Below, piece after piece: positions 34,023 to 39,353 of a DNA stretch of 64,000 bases; positions within the stretch are counted from its first letter, which is position 1, and the number at the start of each line of letters is the position of its first letter. Source of the stretch: Halanaerobium praevalens DSM 2228 (GTDB lineage: Bacteria > Bacillota > Halanaerobiia > Halanaerobiales > Halanaerobiaceae); contig NC_017455.1 in assembly GCF_000165465.1 (NCBI RefSeq), forward strand, positions 992,001-1,056,000, given 5' to 3'. The position numbers and the translations under genes are program-made. Below the pieces are notes generated by a model. It had not been told where the DNA came from. It did not search any database and worked only from the letters and a program-made list of their open reading frames with translations.

Positions 34023-34072
34023 AAAAAAACCTCCTTTATAGAATATATTATATAATTATGTAAAATATTAGA

Positions 34073-34161
34073 AAATCCTGCATTAAATTTAATTTTTTTA
34101 AAATTAATTAAATATTCATAAGATAATTATTTTCTTAGATTTAAAATTAATTGCAGGATTT
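34073..34161. repeat. AT-rich inverted repeat in the yraN / riboswitch divergent gap
   Basis: Arms AAATCCTGCA (34073-34082) and TGCAGGATTT (34152-34161) are exact inverted repeats of 10 bases separated by a 69-base, almost purely A/T interval. The bases inside the arms are also loosely complementary. It lies between the yraN start and the cobalamin riboswitch. No gene is visible here. Confidence 0.5.
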
Positions 34162-34212
34162 AAAGGATAATAAAAGAATATATATAAATAAGAAATCAAA
34201 TAATGTTCTCTT

Positions 34213-34378
34213 TTTAGGTGCTTCTTTCAATAGAAGATAATAGGGAATCAGGTGTAATTCCTGAACGGGTCCGCCACTGTTAAACAGTAATCAACTAAAA
34301 CCACTCAATTATTATTGGGGAAGGTTAGCTGCTAAAGCTGTAAAGTCAGGAGACCTGCCTAAAAAGATAACAGCCATC
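34213..34378 (+). promoter_or_regulatory. Cobalamin (B12) riboswitch
   Basis: Conserved adenosylcobalamin-aptamer elements appear in order: AATAGGGAATCAGGTG near 34229-34244, then GGTCCGCCACTGT (34268-34280), and the B12 box AAGTCAGGAGACCTGCC (34343-34359), matching the rAGYCMGgAgaCCkGCc consensus. The 3' boundary is approximate. It controls the receptor-tonB-exbBD genes through the downstream terminator. Confidence 0.93.
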
Positions 34379-34414
34379 TTCGAGACAGGAATGGTTGTGG
34401 GCTTTATTAATTCA

Positions 34415-34447
34415 AAACCCTCAATTTAATGGCTGAGGGTTTTTTTG
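34415..34447 (+). terminator. Riboswitch expression-platform terminator
   Basis: ACCCTCA (34417-34423) and TGAGGGT (34434-34440) form a stem followed by seven T. Bases CAGCCAT at 34371-34377 could instead pair with ATGGCTG at 34428-34434, which overlaps the terminator: a plausible switching helix. About 60 bases of leader with a second GTCTAG-containing repeat remain before the receptor gene. Confidence 0.85.
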
Positions 34448-34510
34448 TTGTCTAGCCTTATTTTGTCTAGGGTGGCTGTGAGCAAACAAAAACTCAAGGA
34501 GGAATAGTTA

Positions 34511-36307
34511 ATGTTTAAAAAGTCGGTTTTAGTTATGCTTGCAGCACTTTTAATTTTTTCAGTTACAGTAAGTGCGCAGGAGGAAGTTTTGGATTTAGAA
34601 GAAGTTGTTGTGACAGCAAGTAGGTATGAAGAAAGTATTATGGATACCCCAGTTAGTATTGAGGTTATTGATGAGGAGGAGATAGAAGAAAGCAATGCCC
34701 AGAATGTGGCAGAGTTAATTTCTTCTATTGCGGGAGTTCAAATTACAAATTATGGAGGACCAGCTGGTAGTAAAACTATTAATATTAGAGGAAGTGATTC
34801 TAATCAAGTATTAGTCTTGATAGATGGACAATCTATTAATACTAAAATGATTGGAGATGTTGACTTAGGTCAAATTTTAATTTCTAATGTAAAAAGAGTT
34901 GAAGTTTTAAAGGGTCCTGCTTCTGCTATTTATGGTGCTAACGCGTTGGGTGGAGTAGTTAATATAATAACTAAAAATGGTTCTGATAATGAGGGATTAA
35001 AATTAGATTTAGGTATAGGATCTTTTAACACTTATAAAACTGCTTTAAATTATGGTCTAGTTTTTGATAAATCTGAAGTTTTGATAACTGCAGAAACATT
35101 AAATTCAGATGGCTTTAGAGACAATCCAGATAATAGTGGTTTAGATCAATATAATATTTCTACAAAAATAAATTATGATTTAAATCAATATGATGAATTT
35201 GTTTTTGACATAATATATAATAATTCTGATAAAGAAGTTCCAGGTAAAGATAAAGATGGTTGGAGAACCCCCAATGCTAAACAAGAAGATATAATGGAAA
35301 ATTATAGAATAACTTATAATAGAGAGAAAGAAAATTATGATTTGAAATCTTTTCTTTATTATAATGATCAGGAGACTAATTATATAAATCCTGATTCTAA
35401 TACTGATAATATTCATAAAAAGAAAAAGATTGGTTTTGATTTGAGTAACACTTTATTTTATAAAAATAATACTTTAACATATGGATTTGAAATTGTAAAT
35501 AATGAATTAGATAGTTCTCAATTACCTGAAATTTATGATGCAACTAATAAAGCTGTTTTTTTAGAAAATAGTTATACTAAAATTAATAATTTAAAAATAA
35601 ATACAGGAATTAGATACGATGATAATGAAGATTATGGTTCAGAAACTAATCCAAGAGTCAGTTTATTATATAGTATAAATAATAATAATAATATATTTGC
35701 TTCATATGGAGAGGCATATAGGGCTCCAACTTTTGATGAATTGTATTGGGATGAATCTTGGTTAAAAGGTAATCCAGATTTAGAACCTGAAAAATCTAAA
35801 AACTATGAAATAGGTATCAAAAGTAGATTGAATAATAGTAAATTGGAAGTTGTCTTGTTTAAAAATGAAATTGAAAATGAAATTATTGGTTATCCAAATC
35901 CTACTTATAAAAATATTAAAGAATCTGAGACAGATGGTTTAGAGCTAAGTTTAAGTAAAAATATAACTGATAACTTAACATTAGGCTACAGTCATACTTA
36001 CTTAGATAGTAGAAATGTTAAAACTAATAAACTGTTAAAAGATCAATATTATAACGATATTTCTTTAGCTTATAGACCAAAAAACTATTTGGTTAAATTT
36101 AATGTAAGTCATGTTGGTGGTCGAGTTGAGGATTTAGATAATTATACAGTTTGTGATTTAAACTTTTCTAAAAATATAAAAGTTACAGAAAGAGATTATA
36201 AAGTTAAATTAGCTGTTAATAATCTATTTGATCAGGACTATCAAGTTAATGACGGCTATCCAATGCCCGGCCGTAACTTCATGCTTAATCTAAGCACCAA
36301 ATTCTAA
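34511..36307 (+). CDS. btuB: TonB-dependent outer-membrane receptor, probable cobalamin receptor BtuB
   Basis: 598 residues. A signal peptide (cleavage about 22, VSA-QEE) is followed by a TonB box (EEVVVTA, 30-36). The plug domain shows MDTPVSIEVIDEEEIEES, NIRGSDSNQVLVLIDG and VEVLKGPASAIYGANALGGVVNI-type motifs. The rest is a beta-barrel with alternating strands that ends in phenylalanine, the usual outer-membrane insertion signal. The riboswitch upstream argues that the substrate is cobalamin or a corrinoid; this is inference. The gene requires an outer membrane, consistent with a diderm Firmicute. AAGGAGG precedes ATG 34511. Confidence 0.9.
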   Translation: MFKKSVLVMLAALLIFSVTVSAQEEVLDLEEVVVTASRYEESIMDTPVSIEVIDEEEIEESNAQNVAELISSIAGVQITNYGGPAGSKTINIRGSDSNQVLVLIDGQSINTKMIGDVDLGQILISNVKRVEVLKGPASAIYGANALGGVVNIITKNGSDNEGLKLDLGIGSFNTYKTALNYGLVFDKSEVLITAETLNSDGFRDNPDNSGLDQYNISTKINYDLNQYDEFVFDIIYNNSDKEVPGKDKDGWRTPNAKQEDIMENYRITYNREKENYDLKSFLYYNDQETNYINPDSNTDNIHKKKKIGFDLSNTLFYKNNTLTYGFEIVNNELDSSQLPEIYDATNKAVFLENSYTKINNLKINTGIRYDDNEDYGSETNPRVSLLYSINNNNNIFASYGEAYRAPTFDELYWDESWLKGNPDLEPEKSKNYEIGIKSRLNNSKLEVVLFKNEIENEIIGYPNPTYKNIKESETDGLELSLSKNITDNLTLGYSHTYLDSRNVKTNKLLKDQYYNDISLAYRPKNYLVKFNVSHVGGRVEDLDNYTVCDLNFSKNIKVTERDYKVKLAVNNLFDQDYQVNDGYPMPGRNFMLNLSTKF

Positions 36308-36339
36308 ACAAAAACTAACTACAAGAAAGGATGATGATA

Positions 36340-37422
36340 ATGAAGCATAATAAAATAATATATTTAACAGCCTTCCTCTTATCATTATCCCTTATCCTGC
36401 TGCTGGAGGCTAGTTCCTTGAGGCTTCTGGCAGAGGATATAAAACCTAAAGAAAAAAAAGAGGTAGAAATCGAACTATTATTATCTGCTTCTAAAGCTTT
36501 TGCTGGTGATTTAGAGTCAGAACAGCAGCAAACAAACGGGCCAGCAGAATCTTCAAAACCGGAAGTAGATAAAAATAGTTCAGCACCTAAAAAAGAAGTA
36601 ACTACAGAAAAAACTCAAATCGATAAAAAAGTAAAAGAAGAAGTTAAAAAGGTTGAACCAGTTAAAAAAGAGGTTATTGAAACTAAAAAAGTTACAAAGA
36701 CAGCCAAAAAGCAGGTAAAAACAAAATCTAAACCAAAGCCTAAACAAAATAAAGTTAAAGCAGAGCCAGCTAAAAAAGTGGAAAAAGAAGCAAAAAATGA
36801 AGAAATAGAAAAAGAAACTAAAACAGAAGCTCCAGCCTGGCTAAAAGATTCAAAAACTAAAGCAAAAGCTGAGACTAAAGCAAAGAATAGAGAAAAATTT
36901 GATTTAGATAATTTTCTAGAAAAAATAGAAAGTGAAAAAGACACTGAAAATAATAATCAGTCAAAATCAACTGCTGCTAAAAGTAAGCAGGAGTCAAAGC
37001 AAGCAGCAAATAGCTCTAATTCAGCTGCAGATAGTCAAAAAACTAAAACAGCTAGAGCTCAAACAGCAGAAAGTTCTGAAAATAATAAAGAAACAGCAGA
37101 TAAGGGGAATTCAAATAAAGTCTATGATTTACGTCAGGGTAACTCAGACAATTTAAAAAAGCCGGGCATCAAAAACTATTCTCAGCCTAAATATCCTGCT
37201 AATTTAAGAAAAAGAGATATTGAAGGAAAAGTAATAGTTTCTTTAAGAATCGACAAAAAAGGGCAGGTCCATGACTTAAAAATCAGTCAGAGCTCAGGTT
37301 ATGAATCATTTGATCAAGCCGCTTTAAAAGCAGTTTCAAATTGGGAATTTAAAGCTGCAGCTAAAGCTGGTAAAAAAGTTGAAGTAATTGTCAATCTTCC
37401 CATTCGTTTTAAGTTAAATTAA
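36340..37422 (+). CDS. tonB: TonB energy-transducing protein
   Basis: 360 residues. One N-terminal membrane anchor (7-25) leads into a long Lys/Glu/Ala/Pro-rich linker (about 35-270) able to span the periplasm. The C-terminal TonB domain follows: PKYPANLRKRDIEGKVIVSL, then SSGYESFDQAALKAV and PIRFKLN. Of three in-frame ATGs (36331, 36334, 36340) I chose 36340, nine bases after AGAAAGG. It follows the receptor by 32 bases, so the receptor and its energiser are co-transcribed. Confidence 0.92.
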   Translation: MKHNKIIYLTAFLLSLSLILLLEASSLRLLAEDIKPKEKKEVEIELLLSASKAFAGDLESEQQQTNGPAESSKPEVDKNSSAPKKEVTTEKTQIDKKVKEEVKKVEPVKKEVIETKKVTKTAKKQVKTKSKPKPKQNKVKAEPAKKVEKEAKNEEIEKETKTEAPAWLKDSKTKAKAETKAKNREKFDLDNFLEKIESEKDTENNNQSKSTAAKSKQESKQAANSSNSAADSQKTKTARAQTAESSENNKETADKGNSNKVYDLRQGNSDNLKKPGIKNYSQPKYPANLRKRDIEGKVIVSLRIDKKGQVHDLKISQSSGYESFDQAALKAVSNWEFKAAAKAGKKVEVIVNLPIRFKLN

Positions 37423-37436
37423 ATGGAGGTCTAATT

Positions 37437-38084
37437 ATGATTACAGAGTTTATCAAAACAGCAGGGGTGGTTGCCTATCCATTACTTTTAGCAGCCTTTG
37501 TAATGATTTTTATTATAATTGAAAGATCTATAGTTTTTATTTTAAATTATCGGAGCATTAATAAAGAAAAATATTTAAAGGCAGTTTTAAATTTTGATTC
37601 AGAAAAACCAAAAAAAAGTATTTTAGCCAATAAAAAAGGAATTGCAGCCGAAATTTATTATAATTTATTAAAAAGAAAGCCCAAAAATAGAGAAGAATTC
37701 AGTTTATATTTAGATGCTGAAGAAGTAGATAAATTACCTGAATTAGAAAAACACTTAGGATTTTTAAACTTTATTGCTCAGGCTGCCCCCACTCTAGGAC
37801 TTTTAGGTACAGTAAGTGGCATGATCACTACTTTTCAAGTGCTTGGAGTTGGTGGTAATCCAGAGCAGATGGCTTTAGGTATTTCAGAAGCTTTATTTAC
37901 TACAGCTGCAGGTTTAATAATTTCTCTACCAGCAGCAGCTTTTTACCATTATTTTTATTCTAGGCTTGAAAAACTGCATAATCAGCTTAATAACTTAAGA
38001 TTAGAAAGTGAATCACTGCTTTTTAAAGAAGAATTGAAGGAGACTCAAAAGAAGGAGTCTGATCAGAATGAAGTATCAGCCTAA
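37437..38084 (+). CDS. exbB: ExbB/MotA/TolQ family proton channel
   Basis: 215 residues with three membrane segments: about 12-33 at the N-terminus, then FIAQAAPTLGLLGTVSGMITTFQVL and FTTAAGLIISLPAAAFYHYFY, the conserved helices of the family. It forms the proton-conducting motor with ExbD that powers TonB. TGGAGG precedes the ATG. It overlaps exbD by 17 bases. Confidence 0.95.
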   Translation: MITEFIKTAGVVAYPLLLAAFVMIFIIIERSIVFILNYRSINKEKYLKAVLNFDSEKPKKSILANKKGIAAEIYYNLLKRKPKNREEFSLYLDAEEVDKLPELEKHLGFLNFIAQAAPTLGLLGTVSGMITTFQVLGVGGNPEQMALGISEALFTTAAGLIISLPAAAFYHYFYSRLEKLHNQLNNLRLESESLLFKEELKETQKKESDQNEVSA

Positions 38085-38466
38085 AAAAAGAGATTCAGCT
38101 CTTAATCTGGCTCCCATGATTGATATTGTTTTTTTGCTTTTAATTTTCTTTTTAGTTTCTTCCACACTACAGGGAGAAGAGTCTCTTTATAAGATTACTG
38201 TTCCTAATAGTAATTTAGGTCAAAGTGCAGCTGAACAGAGGATTAGTGTCTTTTTAGATAAAAATAATAAGATATACTTTCAGGAAAAAGAATATAAAAA
38301 AGAGCAGATAAAGCAGTTGTTTGCTGTAATTCCAGCTGCTAAAGATAATAAAATTAAAATTTATGCAGACCAGAAAAGTAATTTTGAAGCAATAGTATTT
38401 TTAATCGAAGAGTTTAAAGAGAGGGATTATAAAAATATTTCTTTTGCTTTAAGAGAAAAAAATTAA
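38068..38466 (+). CDS. exbD: ExbD/TolR family biopolymer transport protein
   Basis: 132 residues. One membrane helix with the essential Asp (D19) in LAPMIDIVFLLLIFFLVSS, then a periplasmic domain with a YADQKSNFEAIVFLIEEFK region. Partner of ExbB in the TonB motor. The start lies inside exbB. Confidence 0.94.
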   Translation: MKYQPKKRDSALNLAPMIDIVFLLLIFFLVSSTLQGEESLYKITVPNSNLGQSAAEQRISVFLDKNNKIYFQEKEYKKEQIKQLFAVIPAAKDNKIKIYADQKSNFEAIVFLIEEFKERDYKNISFALREKN

Positions 38467-38573: not shown

Positions 38574-39353
38574 ATGAATAGAAATACAGGCATGTTTTTA
38601 GTCTTTTTAGCTTTAATTTTATTATCGGTTTTAGTTGTTAATGGTCTATATTTTAACAGTCCAGTTGTGGAAGCTCCTCAAAATCAAACAGAAAGTGTTA
38701 GTCAGCAAAAAGATAATACTAATGATCATATCGCTACTAATTTAAGCATTAATCAAGAACAAGAATATGATCCAGATTTAGTTGAAGTACTTATTGGTTT
38801 TGAAAGTCAAAGTAAAGAACAGTCTGAAGCTGTAGAGGAAAACAATCAAACTGTTAGTAAGTTAATGGAAATACTTAAAGCGGCTGATTTAGAAAAAATA
38901 GAAACTCAAGGTTTTAGGGTTTATCCTACTAGTAAATATGATAAAGAAAAAGAAGAAAGTATTAGATATTATGTAGTTAATAACCAAATAAAATTTAGTT
39001 CTAAAGATTTAGGTGAGTTACCAGTTCTTTTAGCTGATTTACTAGATGCAGGAGCTAATAGAATAATTAATCTCAATTATGATTTAGAAAACAAAGAACA
39101 AGTCTTAGAAGAAGTTACTAATTTGGCTTTAAATTCTCTTAAAGAAAAGGCAAATTTTATGGCCACAAATTTAGACAAAGAAAATTATAGAATTAAAGAA
39201 ATTAACTTAGGTACTCAAAATATATATAGAAGTAATTCACCTATGAAAACTATGCTTAGAAGTGAAACCCTTGATCAGAGTTCTGAGGTTCCCTTAGCTG
39301 AACAAAAAGTAAATATTAGAGTTTCTGTATCAGCTAGAATTGAATTATATTAA
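38574..39353 (+). CDS. SIMPL-domain (DUF541) exported protein
   Basis: 259 residues. An N-terminal membrane segment or uncleaved signal (about 7-26) is followed by a low-complexity Gln/Asn linker and a SIMPL domain. That domain shows the repeated pattern SKEQSEAVEENNQTVSKLMEIL, IETQGFRVYPTSKYD and a C-terminal VNIRVSVSARIELY. SIMPL proteins are periplasmic or envelope proteins of largely unknown function, forming oligomers. A strong TGGAGG precedes the ATG. It has its own promoter-like element. Confidence 0.85.
   Translation: MNRNTGMFLVFLALILLSVLVVNGLYFNSPVVEAPQNQTESVSQQKDNTNDHIATNLSINQEQEYDPDLVEVLIGFESQSKEQSEAVEENNQTVSKLMEILKAADLEKIETQGFRVYPTSKYDKEKEESIRYYVVNNQIKFSSKDLGELPVLLADLLDAGANRIINLNYDLENKEQVLEEVTNLALNSLKEKANFMATNLDKENYRIKEINLGTQNIYRSNSPMKTMLRSETLDQSSEVPLAEQKVNIRVSVSARIELY

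Follow-up and report, generated by a model that had tools for sequence, protein, structure and literature searches.

The cobalamin riboswitch and the four genes following it in the stretch of DNA analysed (64,000 nucleotides of Halanaerobium praevalens DSM 2228, hereafter the window) are best explained, with a probability of about 0.85, as a conserved operon, repressed by B12, through which Halanaerobium would take up corrinoids across its outer membrane by a TonB-driven route, with a leader that would act in two stages and with BtuFCD encoded at another site. The genes, the aptamer, the terminator, their conservation, the btuFCD locus and a long-range helix with covariation were obtained by computation and are described below, together with the readings that compete with this explanation. 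The window belongs to a single contig of 2,309,262 bases.

Organization of the operon

Downstream of the riboswitch, the genes appeared in the order receptor, tonB, exbB and exbD, with intergenic gaps of <30 nt and, like all the features of the window given hereafter, on the + strand. The first gene encodes a BtuB-like TonB-dependent receptor of 598 aa (34511..36307; Pfam Plug with 108.3 bits and TonB_dep_Rec barrel with 141.8 bits), whose Shine-Dalgarno sequence AAGGAGG (34496..34502) lies 8 nt 5′ of the ATG at 34511. It is followed by tonB (36331..37422; 363 aa, with a long linker rich in Lys and Glu; TonB_C, 89.6 bits), exbB (37437..38084; 215 aa; MotA_ExbB, 98.3 bits) and exbD (38068..38466; 132 aa; ExbD/TolR, 87.6 bits). 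The TonB_C, MotA_ExbB and ExbD domains, all above the Pfam cut-offs and all within one operon, make up an energy motor; the NCBIfam equivalog cut-offs for exbB and exbD were not reached by the ExbB and ExbD of the window. An earlier note on this DNA had placed a cobalamin riboswitch with a terminator ahead of the four genes, which was borne out by the RF00174 match, the terminator, the open reading frames and the Pfam domains, and had remarked on short gaps, which proved to be 23 nt between receptor and tonB and 14 nt between tonB and exbB, with exbB and exbD overlapping by 17 nt. Its proposal of a Ton uptake module under a B12 riboswitch in a Firmicute with an outer membrane was also supported, the nearest named relatives of the source genome being Halanaerobium species.

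It is unlikely that tonB, exbB and exbD are expressed mainly from an internal start, outside riboswitch control. A promoter within the receptor gene would be possible on sequence grounds, but the intergenic gaps, 23 and 14 nt, are too short to house one, the promoter-like sites of the block were at chance level (22 found vs. 21 expected), and the only partner receptors in the genome are both under cobalamin riboswitches. Regarding the surroundings of the operon, a SIMPL/DUF541 gene (38574-39353, +) was found 3′ of exbD throughout the genus and not after exbD in other genera, with no clear terminator between the two genes. A conserved operator was sought 5′ of the aptamer, where an inverted repeat (about 34072-34160) was not conserved; in one relative (G014), a short-chain-dehydrogenase-like gene was inserted between yraN and the riboswitch (L055:6500-7291, −). 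The window also harboured an OLE RNA (1457-2043, +), matching RF01071 over its full length with 446.9 bits.

Distribution of the module

The order riboswitch-receptor-tonB-exbB-exbD was found in all 14 of the examined Halanaerobiales relatives bearing the main receptor, representing three families, and was kept even though the module occupied more than one genomic site among them. In L054, tonB was missed by BLAST and a TonB_C domain was present at that place. Within the order, a plug domain appeared in 16 of the 38 genomes sampled and some receptor match in 17 of them, and the sample of the phylum yielded a plug domain in 48 of 393 good genomes. Among 41 plug-bearing Bacillota genomes outside the order, 23 had a receptor preceded by a cobalamin riboswitch at ≤1 kb, and in 12 of these exbD was also present within 4.5 kb; six further genomes had a wider block, and riboswitch, receptor and exbD lay close together on one strand in 18 of the 41. 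Moreover, the block was present under a cobalamin riboswitch in Halobacteroidaceae and Atribacterota. The claim that a receptor and its motor under one riboswitch are notable in this phylum therefore fails, as the arrangement is shared by the 14 relatives, by these two groups and by the 18 other Bacillota. The layout is common among receptor-bearing Bacillota rather than an oddity, and in a diderm anaerobe the function of the operon is nothing unusual.

The receptor and the B12 pathway of the genome

The best NCBIfam family for the receptor, over its full length, was the TonB-dependent B12 receptor (TIGR01779), with 287.9 bits vs. a curated equivalog cut-off of 599.7; thus, it is named BtuB-like and not a certified orthologue. 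By sequence profiles, CirA and BtuB scored alike. A plug domain and a barrel of the 22-strand type, as in TonB-dependent receptors, were found by Pfam, in the AlphaFold2 model (pLDDT 81.7, pTM 0.83) and in its PDB matches, the eleven best of which were all E. coli BtuB (Z 41.8-44.0), followed by PirA (39.2). The best match had a Z of 44.0 and an rmsd of 2.0 over 528 residues. The receptor shares the fold, the size and the TonB box of E. coli BtuB, but is only about 23% identical to it, falls below the equivalog cut-off and stands in an operon with its own motor. Stronger evidence than sequence or fold for a role in B12 uptake comes from genomic context. In Halanaerobacter jeridensis, receptor, tonB, exbB and exbD are placed behind btuF-btuC-btuD, with one cobalamin riboswitch over all of them, and the receptor adjoins a riboswitch-btuFCD operon in Orenia, Halonatronum and Natroniella.

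Six cobalamin riboswitches were found in the genome, all of them 5′ of B12-related genes. The btuFCD genes (genome C1:61571-64466) are located behind their own cobalamin riboswitch, which confirms the expectation that, with no btuCDF at the locus, the inner-membrane step is encoded elsewhere. Others precede a cobalamin synthesis cluster (cbiP-like, cobO, cbiC, cbiD, cbiE, cbiT and cbiL-like, named by reading), cobT (by reading) and nrdD, encoding the anaerobic ribonucleotide reductase. The latter gene (L018:4109-7294, +; 1061 aa) is split by a LAGLIDADG-like insertion, probably an intein. Furthermore, a second receptor operon under a cobalamin riboswitch (L016:6460-18512, −, corresponding to genome C1:1324459-1336511) comprises genes for a NikA/DppA-like importer, a TrmO-type protein, a BtuF-like protein, the receptor, a FecCD permease, an ATPase and a cyclase-family protein, and is a candidate operon for the uptake of cobalt or corrinoid. 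A ZMP/ZTP riboswitch was observed 5′ of a pyruvate formate-lyase-like gene (L016:6292-6376, −).

The riboswitch-controlled B12 synthesis cluster, the NikA-like importer of the second riboswitch operon and the score below the B12-receptor cut-off would suit a receptor that imports cobalt or a metallophore instead of a corrinoid, B12 being the repressor because cobalt serves B12 synthesis. Such a function is improbable, however, given that the closest fold is that of BtuB, ahead of siderophore receptors, that linkage to btuFCD occurs in four Halobacteroidaceae, and that the receptor is BtuB-sized, without long loops of the siderophore type; both a cobalt and a siderophore receptor were rated unlikely identities. 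As for the energy supply of the BtuB-like receptor and its counterpart in the second operon, no tonB was found near the latter, and the only other TonB_C/ExbD pair in the genome (C1:1121163-1122518) is part of a set that occurs in 35 of the 38 genomes of the order, with or without receptors, and is therefore probably Tol-like. Hence, both receptors are probably powered by the B12-repressed TonB-ExbB-ExbD of the window.

Aptamer, terminator and candidate antiterminator

The aptamer (34199..34376) matched the full RF00174 model (1-189) with 108.7 bits (gathering threshold 31.5, E-value 2.6e−26), its last 7 bases being shared with the start of P13. According to the sequence and to constrained folds, P13 (34370..34398) is formed by 34370-34377 and 34391-34398, with 34378-34390 as loop L13. 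The likely L5 kissing strand, GUCCG (34269..34273), would have CGAGAC in L13 (34381-34386) as its partner, with one bulged A, and both strands, read by eye, were identical across the 12 leaders bearing the long-range helix described below. An intrinsic terminator (34414..34446) begins 37 nt 3′ of the aptamer and consists of a hairpin (34414-34423 with 34434-34443; dG −11.6) and a U7 tract (34440-34446); it was missed by a pattern scan because only hairpin loops of 3-8 nt were allowed. An intrinsic terminator was present in all 15 leaders compared (the window and 14 relatives), in the relatives at +37 to +72 after the aptamer.

The potential alternative helix of the earlier note does exist, as a candidate antiterminator (34393..34426) in which the P13 3′ arm GGUUGUGGG (34393-34401) would pair with the terminator 5′ arm CCCUCAAUU (34418-34426), but the window has a weak version of it (−8.6 kcal/mol, with p of 0.24 against shuffles). 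It was also weak across most of the genus Halanaerobium, a distant member of which (L048) gave p of 0.041, and stronger in other genera, with p of 0.000, 0.013 and 0.045 in the three relatives L049, L050 and L052. As the full reason for the conserved terminator loop, the antiterminator was rejected, being weakly backed within Halanaerobium. Pairing of the loop sequence AUGGCUG (34429-34435) with the P13 5′ arm, possible in the window alone, was set aside because the relatives lack it. The terminator is probably not the whole mechanism, and a second switch, located after it, is indicated.

A post-terminator helix next to the ribosome site

Directly 5′ of the Shine-Dalgarno sequence, the post-terminator strand UUGUCUAGGGUGGCUGU (34463..34479) is complementary to the P13 5′ arm and L13 (34370-34388), forming a long-range helix of −24.5 kcal/mol that was lower in energy than 300 out of 300 shuffles. 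This helix was found in 12 of the 15 leaders, including all ten from Halanaerobium (p ≤ 0.007) and L059, from another genus. In L054, which belongs to another family, the stem sequence is wholly different and the two strands still match, the cognate pairing reaching −20.9 kcal/mol vs. −9.5 to −13.8 kcal/mol for non-cognate ones. By hand alignment, seven helix pairs of L054 were altered on both sides with pairing kept, a covariation not explained by the constraint on P13 itself, since the post-terminator strand is outside P13. The helix was missing in L049, L050 and L052 and is therefore not needed for the basic switch. Other cobalamin leaders of the genome, of Halobacteroidaceae and of Atribacterota yielded no convincing post-terminator helix, an absence weakly tested because the start-codon rule shortened several post-terminator stretches, which were too short. 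In the L050 and L052 leaders, from another family, the P13 region was complementary to the Shine-Dalgarno sequence itself (CTCC/GGAGG and TTTCCTC/AAGGAGA), possibly a different translational link, and individually these matches were not significant.

Constrained folding of the window and 11 relatives predicted a competing local fold (34459..34506) that partly covers the Shine-Dalgarno sequence once P13 has formed. When P13 was forced in silico, the predicted accessibility of this site fell in all 12 leaders, which are related and not independent, folding being of a single strand without tertiary contacts or co-transcriptional order. The decrease was from 0.88 to 0.32 in L046 and from 0.62 to 0.38 in the window, and was small in L057, L056 and L059, while shuffled post-terminator stretches gave a mean change near zero. 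There is about an even chance that the leader combines two serial platforms, in which the P13 3′ arm would set termination and the P13 5′ arm, with the kissing loop, would set ribosome access in the transcripts that escape. A somewhat doubtful, still quite possible, alternative is control by termination only, the post-terminator helix serving to block the re-forming of P13 or to protect the readthrough mRNA, with no gating of the ribosome. It would fit the presence of a terminator in every leader, the lack of the helix in three relatives with an otherwise unchanged operon and the small changes predicted in L057, L056 and L059; on the other hand, it does not account for accessibility decreasing with P13 in 12 out of 12 leaders with shuffles averaging zero, nor for a covarying strand directly 5′ of the ribosome site. 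A coherent two-stage switch is the simplest reading of the leader, in which, as the folding suggests, the long-range helix would act on translation.

Proposed mechanism and comparison with known leaders

The proposed mechanism covers the ligand response, the antiterminator step in H. praevalens, the translational stage and the transport. With corrinoid bound, L5 and L13 would kiss and hold P13, so that the terminator forms and none of the four genes is transcribed. In the absence of corrinoid, the P13 3′ arm would pair with the terminator 5′ arm, allowing readthrough. In the readthrough transcripts, the freed P13 5′ arm and L13 would pair just 5′ of the ribosome site and leave it open, whereas re-formation of P13 would let the post-terminator strand fold over the Shine-Dalgarno sequence. 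The receptor, driven by the co-expressed TonB-ExbB-ExbD, would then bring corrinoid into the periplasm, from which it would be imported by BtuFCD, encoded at its separate locus under its own cobalamin riboswitch. Among the points against the overall explanation are the score of the receptor far below the TIGR01779 cut-off, the similar profile scores of CirA and BtuB, and the weak antiterminator of the window.

The terminator logic is that of the tested metE case of Priestia megaterium, a repressing corrinoid riboswitch, in which corrinoid binding joins L5 and L13 and holds P13 so that the terminator forms; when corrinoid is absent, the 3′ side of P13 and the 5′ side of the terminator pair with each other (PMC10653944). 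Both leaders have an aptamer, P13/L13, an antiterminator of the P13 3′ arm with the terminator 5′ arm (a candidate one in the window) and a terminator; the window differs in the L5 sequence (GUCCG vs. UCCCG) and adds the post-terminator strand that pairs with the P13 5′ arm and L13 near the ribosome site. The cobalamin riboswitch of E. coli btuB, which acts on translation (PMC10653944), resembles the proposed second stage, as a P13 held by kissing favours a hairpin at the ribosome site, and also controls a BtuB-type receptor; in the window, in contrast, the proposed stage would come after an intrinsic terminator, and the receptor gene is followed by tonB-exbB-exbD in the operon. Dual riboswitches acting on transcription and translation exist, such as the c-di-GMP riboswitch Bc1 (PMC11218506), whose single leader likewise joins a terminator to control of the ribosome site. 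However, Bc1 binds another ligand and is incoherent, whereas the two stages of the window would act in the same direction through the two arms of one stem. No cobalamin riboswitch with both platforms split in this way was found in the open papers searched, only dual riboswitches of other kinds, and the expression platform looks like a new layout variant among cobalamin riboswitches.

Exchange of the receptor core

The central part of the receptor gene (34750..36250, about residues 80-575) showed an abrupt change of DNA identity vs. relatives and a conflict between trees. Compared with G010, G012, G014 and G016, identity was mostly 68-86% from the riboswitch to nt 240 of the receptor gene, about 55% across the core, and 84-88% again at the end of the receptor gene and the start of tonB. 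With respect to G015 and G017, the core was 74-90% identical and the tonB linker only about 50-60%. Moreover, H. congolense and G014 are sisters according to their flanking proteins (89% identity), but their cores are 36% identical, that of G014 grouping with those of WC1 (80%) and H. kushneri. A core tree holding the crown species together was rejected (cost of 177 log units, AU p of 6.7e−67), as were flank trees holding either of two core groups together (p of 0.0013 and 3e−37). Within one genus, at least four core types followed the same leader and signal/TonB-box segment, and where the core was exchanged (window vs. L055-L058) these two parts and the motor genes were retained.

These patterns are best read as exchange of the core in place, by homologous replacement between conserved ends among related species. 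Phages and bacteriocins attack the outer loops of TonB-dependent receptors, and such loops evolve fast, which would favour divergence of the core by fast selection inside each lineage, without exchange between species. This is very improbable here, as the core and flank trees differ in topology and not just in length (see the cost of 177 log units above), the core of G014 goes with WC1 and H. kushneri and its flanks with H. congolense, and identity changes in sharp steps near nt 34750 and 36250.

Significance

Among outer-membraned Bacillota, TonB-dependent transport is known from Negativicutes, a separate diderm lineage (Veillonella parvula, PMC5491611); the Atribacterota loci, with the same riboswitch-receptor-tonB-exbB-exbD order, represent another separate diderm lineage. 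In H. orenii, TonB-ExbBD-like genes were reported with no receptor (PMC2626281), and H. congolense WG8 under pressure had more TonB-associated and B12 synthesis proteins (PMC6544827). A survey of 2025 placed the Ton systems of diderm Firmicutes in Negativicutes alone and called the complete Ton systems of 'Clostridia' probably non-functional (PMC12204202). Since NCBI files Halanaerobiales under Clostridia, some of those systems may be the module described here. The Halanaerobiales are a second lineage of outer-membraned Bacillota with complete, dedicated and regulated Ton systems, the survey having had Negativicutes only (PMC12204202).

What is new is the probable second stage of the leader and the mosaic receptor, both absent from the earlier note. 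A two-arm switch, if real, would offer a simple route from one aptamer to a leak-proof off state. The exchange of the core in place, which spared leader and motor, suggests that in natural brine communities selection acts on the receptor's outer face or on its preference among corrinoids.
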